From Marivita geojedonensis (GTDB taxonomy: Bacteria > Pseudomonadota > Alphaproteobacteria > Rhodobacterales > Rhodobacteraceae), in the NCBI RefSeq assembly GCF_002115805.1, contig NZ_JFKC01000003.1:248001-312000 (forward strand): a stretch of DNA of 64,000 nucleotides. Reading direction: 5' to 3'. This document shows, piece by piece, positions 24,122-40,943 of the stretch. How positions within the stretch are numbered: the stretch's first letter is position 1; each line of letters begins with the position of its first letter. The translations under genes were made by a program, and so were the position numbers. A model generated the notes under the pieces. That model searched no databases and was not told the DNA's origin. It saw only the letters and a list, made by a program, of their open reading frames with translations.

Positions 24122-25360
24122 TCAGGCCGTGGTCTCTTTCGACTGGAACATCAGCCAGATCAGCGCGCCACCGGCCAGCATCAGGAACGGCGCCATCGCC
24201 ATGTTCACGGCGCTCCACCCTTCAACCGGGGTGCCGCCGGAACAGTTCAGTAACCCGCCCGACGCCAGTGAGGCCATCGTCACGCCGCCGAACAGGAGCA
24301 CATCGTTCATGCCCTGCACACGGCCGCGCTCGTGCGGCTCATGCGCGGCGGTCAGCATCGCGGTTGCGCCGATGAAGCCGAAGTTCCAGCCAAAGCCAAG
24401 CAGGATCAGGGCGATATAGAAATTCTCGATCGCCACACCCTGCAGCGCCACAGCGCCGGCGGCCGCGAGGATCAACAATCCTGTGGCGACGATCTTTTCC
24501 ACCCCGAACCGAACGATCAGATGCCCGGTGAAAAAGGACGGAATGAACATCGCCAGAACATGCGCGGACACGATGTCGGCCGCGTTGTTGGCGGTGTAGC
24601 CACATCCGACCACGGCCAGCGGTGTCGAGGTCATGACGAGGTTCATCAGCGCATAGGTGACCATGCCGCAGATGATCGCCACTGCGATGCGCGGCGTCTT
24701 TATCAGCTCCAACCGGGTGCGACCCTTGGGGTCGTCCGCGTTGGGTGCCTTGGGCTTTGGAATGTCGAGGAACAGGAACAGCGTCGAACCGAACAGGTTC
24801 AGGGTGATCACCGCAAAATAGGTGCCTAGGAACGGCACAACGTACCAATCCGCCGTTGCCTTGACCAATTGCGGCCCAAGGATCGCGGCGACAAGGCCAC
24901 CTGCCATGACATAGGAAATGGCTTTGGGGCGAAAATCATCCGTGGCGGTGTCGGCGGCAGCGAAGCGGTAAAACCCCTGTGCTGACATATAGATACCGGT
25001 CAGGAAACTGCCCAAGAGGAAGACCGGAAAAGACGCGATATAGAGACCATAGGCCCCGATGGCACCGCCCAGTGCGCCACCCATTGCGCCCACGGCAAAC
25101 CCGGCACGACGCCCGAATTTCTGCATGAAGGCCGAGATGGGTGTTGCGGTGGTCATCGACCCCAGAACGATCAGCGAGATCGGGAGCGTGGCAAAGCAGA
25201 TGTTTGATGCCAGCGACTGACCTGCCAGACCACCCACGGTAAACAGCATTGGCATCTGCGCACCCAGAATGGCCTGGGCGAGGACCAGAACAAACACGTT
25301 GCGCTTGGCACGGCGGTTTTCTGTGGTGTTGTCGGGGGTGGCATGGTCAATTGTGCTCAT
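24122..25360 (-). CDS. Major facilitator superfamily transporter
   Basis: A 412-residue membrane protein with about twelve hydrophobic helices and a polar loop after helix six (IPKPKAPNADDPKGRTRLELIKTP). MFS loop motifs are visible after helix two (FMQKFGRRAGFAVGAMG) and in the second half (HEPHERGRVQGMNDV). The start MSTIDHATPDN is chosen since the longer frame is basic low-complexity sequence. The family layout suggests drug or metabolite efflux by proton antiport; substrate unknown. Divergent from cobK, with an 89-base gap holding both promoters. Confidence 0.88.
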   Translation of the reverse strand: MSTIDHATPDNTTENRRAKRNVFVLVLAQAILGAQMPMLFTVGGLAGQSLASNICFATLPISLIVLGSMTTATPISAFMQKFGRRAGFAVGAMGGALGGAIGAYGLYIASFPVFLLGSFLTGIYMSAQGFYRFAAADTATDDFRPKAISYVMAGGLVAAILGPQLVKATADWYVVPFLGTYFAVITLNLFGSTLFLFLDIPKPKAPNADDPKGRTRLELIKTPRIAVAIICGMVTYALMNLVMTSTPLAVVGCGYTANNAADIVSAHVLAMFIPSFFTGHLIVRFGVEKIVATGLLILAAAGAVALQGVAIENFYIALILLGFGWNFGFIGATAMLTAAHEPHERGRVQGMNDVLLFGGVTMASLASGGLLNCSGGTPVEGWSAVNMAMAPFLMLAGGALIWLMFQSKETTA

Positions 25361-36096: not shown

Positions 36097-36114
36097 CCGC
36101 TTTTGTTCCCAAAT

Positions 36115-36129
36115 GTTCTCATAAAGTTC
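36115..36129 (+). promoter_or_regulatory. LexA (SOS) box of alphaproteobacterial type
   Basis: GTTC-TCATAAA-GTTC matches the alphaproteobacterial LexA consensus GTTC-N7-GTTC exactly. It lies 54 bases before the ATG of the 44-residue protein and inside a larger inverted repeat (36115-36156) whose arms are GTTCTCAT/ATGAGAAC and TTCTTTAC/GTAAAGAA. Confidence 0.75.
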
Positions 36130-36156
36130 TTTACAGGCCGTAAAGAATATGAGAAC
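36115..36156. repeat. Interrupted inverted repeat containing the LexA box
   Basis: Two 8-bp arm pairs, 36115-36122 with 36149-36156 and 36127-36134 with 36140-36147, flank the centre AGGCC. The outer arms are separated from the inner by 4 bases on the left and 1 on the right. Confidence 0.8.
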
Positions 36157-36182
36157 AAAGGGGCAACAAGGAGGACTTAACC

Positions 36183-36317
36183 ATGATGCAGCGGATCAAA
36201 ATCTCGTTCCACGCCGCCAGGGCCCAGACCAACACGGCGCTTCTTCAGGATGCGCTTGGGGCCATGTCGCTGGTTGTGATGCTGGTTGCGGCGCTGCATC
36301 TGCCGGTGCTCGTCTGA
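36183..36317 (+). CDS. 44-residue SOS-controlled membrane microprotein (candidate)
   Basis: A 44-codon gene starting MMQRIKISFHAARAQ, with AAGGAGG eight bases upstream, a nearly ideal ribosome site. The N-terminal half is basic/polar; residues 24-44 form one hydrophobic helix (ALGAMSLVVMLVAALHLPVLV) that runs to the very C-terminus, so it should be a tail-anchored inner-membrane protein. A perfect LexA box precedes it and a strong terminator follows about 125 bases later. Caulobacter SidA, a 29-residue SOS-induced membrane inhibitor of division, is the obvious functional analogue; homology is not evident. Confidence 0.8.
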   Translation: MMQRIKISFHAARAQTNTALLQDALGAMSLVVMLVAALHLPVLV

Positions 36318-36443
36318 TCTGTTACCTTTTTTGCCTGCGTGTTTCTGCCTGACGGCTCCGCATCCTGTCCCAACTGATGCACCTGTCCCAGAAGGTTGCC
36401 TGCCTTCACCGTCCTGATGGCCCCCAACGAACGCGCGACTTTC
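36318..36443. other. Untranslated stretch between microprotein and terminator
   Basis: About 126 bases without a convincing gene; it may be the 3' untranslated region of the microprotein mRNA or the body of a small RNA that ends at the terminator at 36444-36480. Confidence 0.4.
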
Positions 36444-36480
36444 CCGCCGCCTTCAGTTTCTGGAGTGCGGCGGTTTTTTT
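36444..36480 (+). terminator. Strong intrinsic terminator
   Basis: CCGCCGC + CTTCAG, TTT loop, CTGGAG + GCGGCGG, a 13-bp stem with one bulge and one G-U, followed by TTTTTTT. Ends the transcript of the SOS microprotein. Confidence 0.92.
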
Positions 36481-40325: not shown

Positions 40326-40943
40326 TCACTGATCGGGGGCAATCAGGCCCAATCCGCGCAGGTAGACGCCGATTGCGGATTCCAGCAGTTCCTCGGGGGG
40401 GAACGGCGAGGTCGTTCCGGGAGAGTTCCGCGCAAAGAGTTCGACCACGCCGTGGCTCAGCGCCCAGATATGGGCGGAGAACATGGAGGCGGGCGGGCGC
40501 TTTTCTGGGGGAATGTGCTGCGACAGATCTTCTGCGGCGCGTTCAAGCACTGACCGGGCGCGAGCCGAGACTGCAGCCAGTTCCGGCGTGCGGTTCACCG
40601 AGATGCCACTTTCAAACATTGCAATATAGTGACCGGGGTATTTTCGCGCAAAAGCTAAATATGCGCGGCCTGTCGCCTCGAAGGCAGCCAAGGCCGAGGG
40701 TTGGCCGCTGTCATAGGCGTATTGCATCACATCGGCGAAAATCTCGTAGCCCTGAAGCGCCGCTTCGGCGATCAGGTCTTCGCGGCCTTCGAAATGGCGG
40801 TAGACGGCGGCGGGGGTGACGCCCGCCTGTTTGGCGGCTTCCGAGAGGGTAAAGCCGGTCGGGCCCTTCTCGGTGATCAGCTCGAGAGCTGCATCAACGA
40901 GGGCCTGCCGCAGATTGCCGTGATGGTAGCCGCGTTTAGCCAT
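40326..40943 (-). CDS. TetR-family transcriptional regulator
   Basis: A 205-residue regulator. The N-terminal helix-turn-helix reads [46 protein letters not shown] (key residues only: Gly, Thr, Tyr-Arg-His-Phe), followed by a C-terminal ligand-binding domain with a WHG-like pattern ([18 protein letters not shown]). It overlaps the ppk2 3' end by eight bases and is likely co-transcribed with it, so it could respond to nutrient or phosphate state; no operator was identified. Confidence 0.9.

Follow-up and report, generated by a model that had tools for sequence, protein, structure and literature searches.

Small proteins of the inner membrane that are made under SOS control have been described in several bacteria. 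SidA of the alphaproteobacterium Caulobacter crescentus is a LexA-controlled protein of 29 residues with a single helix that inhibits division and is described as contacting FtsW; together with DidA it is counted among the small membrane proteins of the SOS response that act at a late stage of division (PMC4211646). YneA, ChiZ and SosA, from other phyla, are likewise small SOS membrane proteins with a single helix; a LysM domain is present in YneA and ChiZ, SosA has an extended region, and the YneA helix is described as contacting FtsW (PMC13396833). In E. coli, DinQ and TisB are SOS-controlled single-helix peptides with control at the RNA level, DinQ being described as a toxic single-transmembrane peptide with antisense RNAs (PMC3567139). 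Regulation through RNA is also known from Klebsiella, where DinR is cut from the 3' end of the LexA-controlled dinI mRNA and represses ftsZ (PMC10907235), and from the Rhodobacteraceae themselves, where UpsM, a family-specific structured RNA tied to division genes, is the 5' leader RNA of the division cluster; the part of the source available to us describes no LexA control for it (PMC5089854).

The locus reported here combines traits of several of these systems. It appears to be an undescribed microprotein gene that lies after recG in most Rhodobacteraceae, codes for a predicted membrane protein roughly 40 residues long, and has LexA sites on its 5' side and a folded RNA on its 3' side. With its putative LexA control, very small size, single helix, predicted inner-membrane location and alphaproteobacterial host, it fits the type that SidA represents. 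In contrast to SidA, however, the protein is 39 to 45 residues long, and its gene carries a structured RNA tail, a feature that the part of the SidA source available to us does not report (PMC4211646). Unlike YneA, ChiZ and SosA, it stops about three residues past a conserved proline; no LysM domain follows the helix, as the protein ends there and has no Pfam family. It differs from DinQ and TisB in that its helix is conserved on one face and its gene sits at a family-wide fixed address. Unlike DinR, the RNA is structure-conserved across the family and its partner protein is a membrane protein rather than DinI, and UpsM belongs to another locus. Among the papers listed by full-text searches of openly licensed literature, no title or abstract shown names the microprotein gene or its RNA, and none of those listed concerns an SOS division brake for Rhodobacterales.

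Layout of the unit

The features below are numbered within the window, that is, the whole 64,000-nucleotide stretch that was analysed.

36105-36108, + strand: upstream GTTC half-site, 10 bases ahead of box A
36115-36129, + strand: LexA box A, GTTC-N7-GTTC, GTTCTCATAAAGTTC, exact in sequence
36130-36134, + strand: conserved TTTAC (33 of 37 loci)
36153-36167, - strand: second LexA-like site, box B, GAAC-N7-CAAC on the + strand and GTTG-N7-GTTC on the - strand
36168-36174, + strand: ribosome binding site AAGGAGG
36183-36317, + strand: 44-codon frame of the predicted membrane microprotein, MMQRIKISFHAARAQTNTALLQDALGAMSLVVMLVAALHLPVLV, with ATG at 36183 and the stop codon at 36315-36317
36329-36442, + strand: structured RNA in the 3' untranslated region, with a closing stem and hairpins whose loops are C-rich (CUGUCCC and UUGCCUG type)
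36444-36480, + strand: intrinsic terminator, stem 36444-36473 followed by seven T to 36480

An initial annotation had proposed a LexA-controlled membrane microprotein here, and the exact box, the AAGGAGG and the 44-codon frame that it listed are all present on direct reading. Of the 17 genus members, 16 keep this ribosome site, the exception being L017 with CGGAGG. The strong terminator that it placed at 36444-36480 is borne out by the stem and run of seven T, and the segment 36318-36482 folds at -54.7 kcal/mol (z -4.19); in the genus alignment the terminator reads CCGCCGCC...GCGGCGG-T6/7. A simple scan did not list it. Three features were absent from that annotation: box B, the GTTC half-site ahead of box A, and the structured RNA on the 3' side.

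LexA sites before the gene

By count alone box A does not stand out, as the window holds three exact copies of GTTC-N7-GTTC against a mean of 2.0 in shuffles, which is chance level; the other two lie at 24545-24559 (- strand) and 40414-40428 (+ strand). In the whole genome the pattern occurs 190 times and the reversed pattern 76 times. Box A is significant because its place, its spacing and the gene behind it are conserved in relatives, not because of the number of boxes in the window. A chance match could be ruled out on the same ground, since an exact box A stands at the same place in 57 of the 58 loci found through the protein.

The same motif, on either strand and no more than 250 bases before the matched start, precedes recA in 18 of 18 family loci and lexA in 22 of 23, while the reversed control pattern precedes neither gene in these loci. 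The only lexA miss (L101) is a shorter locus, so that the offset is wrong and the frame read there is not a lexA start. GTTC-N7-GTTC is also the LexA consensus described for Caulobacter (PMC12700426). A motif shared with recA and lexA and kept in the promoter region of nearly all loci makes LexA control of the microprotein gene, as the initial annotation had proposed, very likely.

Further sites accompany box A. In 127 of 135 leaders box B takes the form GAAC-N7-[CG]AAC, whereas no alternative spacing between 4 and 11 is seen in more than 5; several diverged relatives have an exact GAAC-N7-GAAC. Among the 37 non-redundant protein-found loci with an exact box, which are also those counted for TTTAC, 34 have the upstream GTTC. 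Several LexA sites suggest tight repression, as would be expected for a product that needs to stay off. The TTTAC is probably part of the promoter; a sigma-70 scan returned no promoter at the locus.

Box A had initially been seen as lying within an interrupted inverted repeat. The outer arms of that repeat hold up as box A and the facing box B, but the repeat is not conserved as such, as its inner arms (CTTTAC / GTAAAG) vary among relatives. An RNA hairpin at this position was ruled out, since in addition to the variable inner arms, changes in the left arm are often uncompensated, and two facing LexA sites appear to fit the repeat better. We also dropped the idea that the 3' loops pair with the 5' leader: the leader element GAACAAANNNNCAAC holds the LexA spacing and, judged by eye, shows no visible co-variation with the loops.

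In one genome (G017), two overlapping tandem LexA boxes in 11-base steps stand before both lexA (L091) and a diverged small frame (L290). The in-silico LexA map of Dinoroseobacter shibae, in the part available to us, names other targets (PMC6473078), and a study of SOS regulation in multi-chromosome bacteria describes LexA sites at recG in some alphaproteobacteria (PMC3323433).

A fixed address after recG

By the family we mean the Rhodobacteraceae in a wide sense, as inferred here, with members such as Paracoccus, Rhodobacter, Ruegeria and Roseobacter. A single-sequence search recovered the frame in all 17 genus genomes and, at E <0.1, in 13 of 20 genomes of other family genera. With A1, a protein profile made from 30 sequences, matches at E 0.1 or better were obtained in 347 of 394 family genomes. 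Conservation of both frame and box among relatives, the lack of which was to have counted against the initial annotation, is thus found in these genomes and at 57 of 58 loci, respectively. In an even draw of 385 genomes from the class, all five family members matched the profile strongly, and 14 of the 380 others matched weakly (E 0.003 to 0.1 per genome), below chance expectation. Eleven of these 14 best matches outside the family lie in frames of at least 139 codons; the other three are in short frames that lack a box and have none of ligA, recG, iscU-like or hisI as a neighbour.

The placement after recG was confirmed at all 58 protein-found loci (54 distinct genomes), where recG lies directly upstream. 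The reverse test, in which the box signature alone was scanned across named genomes, gave at least 118 stretches. Among the 118 box-found loci listed, 116 encode the microprotein, and the two that do not, L169 and L240, end 116 and 77 bases past the box start. The same number, 116 of those listed, have recG, within 300 bases upstream in 114; of the exceptions, L244 starts 22 bases before the box and L254 has no recG in the sequence piece examined. In L151 and L253 the gap between recG and the box is about 545 bases instead of some tens, so something has been inserted.

We re-examined 20 family genomes that the profile had missed and found recG, at full or partial length, in 17, of which 15 loci were read. 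A diverged small hydrophobic frame follows recG in 10 of the 15, with an exact box on either strand; four have nothing recognisable after recG, and one further locus is incomplete. Taken together, these surveys suggest a unit that is ancestral to the family, with a protein that appears to be diverging fast. Shortened and strongly diverged proteins, for example with LWLPAILQA ends, stand behind the same box in L152, L206, L227, L251, L253 and L265.

A predicted membrane helix with one conserved face

The coding status of the frame is supported by purifying selection: the pooled dN/dS among 16 same-length members of the genus (of 17; L017, which has a deletion, was omitted) is 0.144, with a value of 0.07 for residues 20-44, and variable columns fall 37 times at codon position 3, 19 times at position 1 and 11 times at position 2. 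The hydrophobic C-terminal helix noted initially agrees with the AlphaFold2 model, a single helix over residues 3-43 (mean pLDDT 77.6, about 90 at residues 21-40; pTM 0.40). Together these data support a translated, small, single-helix protein that would reside in the membrane. Judging from the positive residues ahead of its hydrophobic stretch, the protein probably has its N-terminus inside. Neither Pfam nor NCBIfam has a family for the protein, PHROGs gave two marginal single-member matches and nothing more, and phage and plasmid collections gave no match.

Conservation is concentrated on one side of this helix. Among 94 non-redundant sequences, D23 and G26 are invariant (94/94), and L30 (90/94), L34 (83/94), L38 (93/94) and P41 (90/93) are nearly so. 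These 94 were drawn from 135 proteins by removing duplicates, 16 same-genus copies, short sequences and those more than 80% identical; nine diverged proteins were excluded from the counts. Conservation has a periodicity peak at 100 degrees per residue (p 0.013), which, as it comes from one fixed segment, we take as moderate evidence for a one-sided helix. Such one-sided conservation of a hydrophobic helix is suggestive of a specific partner in the membrane.

It is possible that this partner has nothing to do with division. Small single-helix proteins often regulate larger membrane proteins, and the microprotein might be an SOS modulator of a transporter, a protease, an envelope sensor or a respiratory complex. 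That precedent, and a conserved face that names no particular partner, speak for such a role, but no neighbouring gene hints at a partner of this kind, the constant neighbour being recG, and we consider the idea unlikely, though it deserves to be kept in mind. The sequence of the microprotein likewise holds nothing that favours FtsW over another membrane protein.

A structured RNA downstream of the stop codon

In the genus, the segment between the stop codon and the terminator has CUGCCUGCG, CUGUCCC and UUGCCUG-type stretches in common, which lie in folded regions. For 87 of the 135 3' regions, the cores were compared with dinucleotide shuffles, giving a mean z of -2.47 with 54 of 87 below -2, while recG coding stretches used as a control gave a mean of -0.21 with 4 of 59 below -2. 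Within the genus alone, RNAalifold found a two-sided change in only 1 of 33 pairs, because the sequences are too alike.

Two models of the RNA were built, R1 from 12 relatives and without the terminator, and R2 from 66. The search set for the models consisted of 79 loci, chosen mainly for long 3' regions, and a further search covered 55 other sORF loci and nine diverged ones, with four duplicate loci excluded. In the 66-row alignment (A6), which was fitted to the structure and is hence biased towards it, 90.1% of cells are paired, 29 of 30 pairs have at least one two-sided change, and covariation is 0.507 against 0.154 when shuffled and 0.06-0.10 when slid. Four of 78 rows were spurious in the preceding alignment A5 and none in A6.

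Of 76 held-out loci, some of them closely related to training loci, R2 matched 45 at E 0.05 or better. In a set of 38 never-used loci it matched 32 (E 0.03 or better), each time soon after the stop codon. Every one of the 140 hits with a mapped stop (66 from training and two held-out sets of 42 and 32) is on the strand of the gene and starts 2-111 bases past the stop. Across whole genomes, R2 found the locus in 21 of 23 from the family, six of them genus members belonging to the training set, and in none of 14 from outside, with no other match at E <0.05. In the source genome, whose locus (L001) was in the training set, the sole match scored 60.4 bits (E 1e-8). Two weak extra matches, G012:C20:739-822 and G012:C7:176831-176955 (E 0.06 and 0.34), are probably chance. 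With R1 alone and stricter filters, only 4 of 61 whole genomes gave a match to the RNA at E 0.01 or better, and Rfam matches at the locus fell far below gathering scores.

On this comparative evidence, a covarying structured RNA lies 3' of the microprotein stop codon; some members of the family have a weaker form of it or have lost it. In L152 and L206, which like L227 are from Paracoccus, none of the C-rich 3' motifs is present.

A small single-helix protein under LexA control, made from a transcript that folds strongly, might also be a membrane-active peptide of the TisB/DinQ type. On SOS induction such a peptide would lower the membrane potential and slow the cell, the structured mRNA restraining translation as at type I toxin-antitoxin loci. 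The conserved and mostly uncharged face, with its invariant D23 and G26, suggests a specific partner instead. The gene holds one fixed address in most family genomes, whereas toxin loci are typically scattered, and no antisense gene was noticed in the general examination of the locus. Taken together, we regard a peptide of this type as distinctly unlikely.

A possible RNA target at ftsZ

The example of DinR led us to compare the RNA with the leader of ftsZ. Most family loci do not have the usual AGGAGG as the ribosome site of ftsZ; the site reads CAGGCGGA(C/T)A, for example in L338 (source genome), L319 and L317. Read by eye, CAGGCGGA precedes ftsZ in 20 of 22 family loci, and CAGGCGG precedes it in none of 8 outside loci within the 33 bases examined. 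When 180 sites of the source genome, taken from crude gene calls, were ranked for their pairing with four C-rich segments of the RNA, the ftsZ ribosome site came 10th; this is one target, chosen after DinR, and an equally good result was reached by 2 of 60 shuffled segment sets. In RNAduplex runs of the whole RNA against the leaders of ftsZ, recA and lexA, the duplexes were too long to offer a usable contrast. Pairing of the 3' RNA with the ftsZ ribosome site is weakly indicated and suggestive at most.

Should it occur, one SOS transcript might act at two levels in most Rhodobacteraceae, the microprotein jamming the divisome while the 3' RNA, pairing through CUGCCUGCG and CUGUCC stretches with the family-specific ftsZ site CAGGCGGACA, would cut the supply of FtsZ. 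We think this improbable. Alternatively, the frame might be secondary and the locus serve chiefly to make the structured RNA, as an SOS small RNA that acts perhaps on ftsZ mRNA. The covarying structure of the RNA, the position of all 140 mapped hits 2-111 bases past the stop, the rank of the ftsZ site and the Klebsiella precedent (PMC10907235) are consistent with this. However, selection on the protein is clear, the protein persists at loci without an RNA match at E 0.05 (31 of 76 and 6 of 38 held-out loci), and the pairing concerns the single ftsZ target, picked after the DinR report and equalled by shuffled sets, so that a primary RNA product seems very improbable to us.

A proposed membrane brake on division

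Our preferred reading is that the locus encodes an SOS-induced membrane brake on division, a plausible candidate to which, as a whole model, we give about an even chance. The best functional analogy is with the small SOS membrane proteins that halt late division, SidA (PMC4211646) and YneA, with its FtsW-contacting helix (PMC13396833). In this model the unit would be a stand-alone SOS gene making one short transcript. LexA at box A, aided by box B and the upstream GTTC, would keep the promoter shut, and RecA-driven cleavage of LexA would open it and yield the transcript. The microprotein would then insert as a single helix, probably with its N-terminus inside, and its conserved face (D23-G26-L30-L34-L38-P41) would grip a multi-pass membrane partner, most likely in the late divisome (FtsW/FtsI/FtsN), so that septation might be delayed until DNA repair is complete. 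The structured 3' end would be a regulatory part of the same transcript, affecting its stability or translation or being released as a small RNA.

In keeping with a brake of this kind, a profile search for SulA (PF03846) found none in 37 genomes, the source genome and 23 family genomes included, while the E. coli control was positive. The absence of SulA leaves the division slot open, though it is not thereby filled.

Our findings add to the LexA maps of the Rhodobacteraceae a likely target that standard protein families have overlooked, with an attached RNA that matches no Rfam family above gathering. With the gene present in 347 of 394 family genomes, LexA sites before it and a fixed address at recG, the question of a division brake in Rhodobacterales becomes directly testable. 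If true, the pairing on one transcript of a membrane microprotein under LexA control and a conserved structured RNA would represent a checkpoint layout of a new kind.
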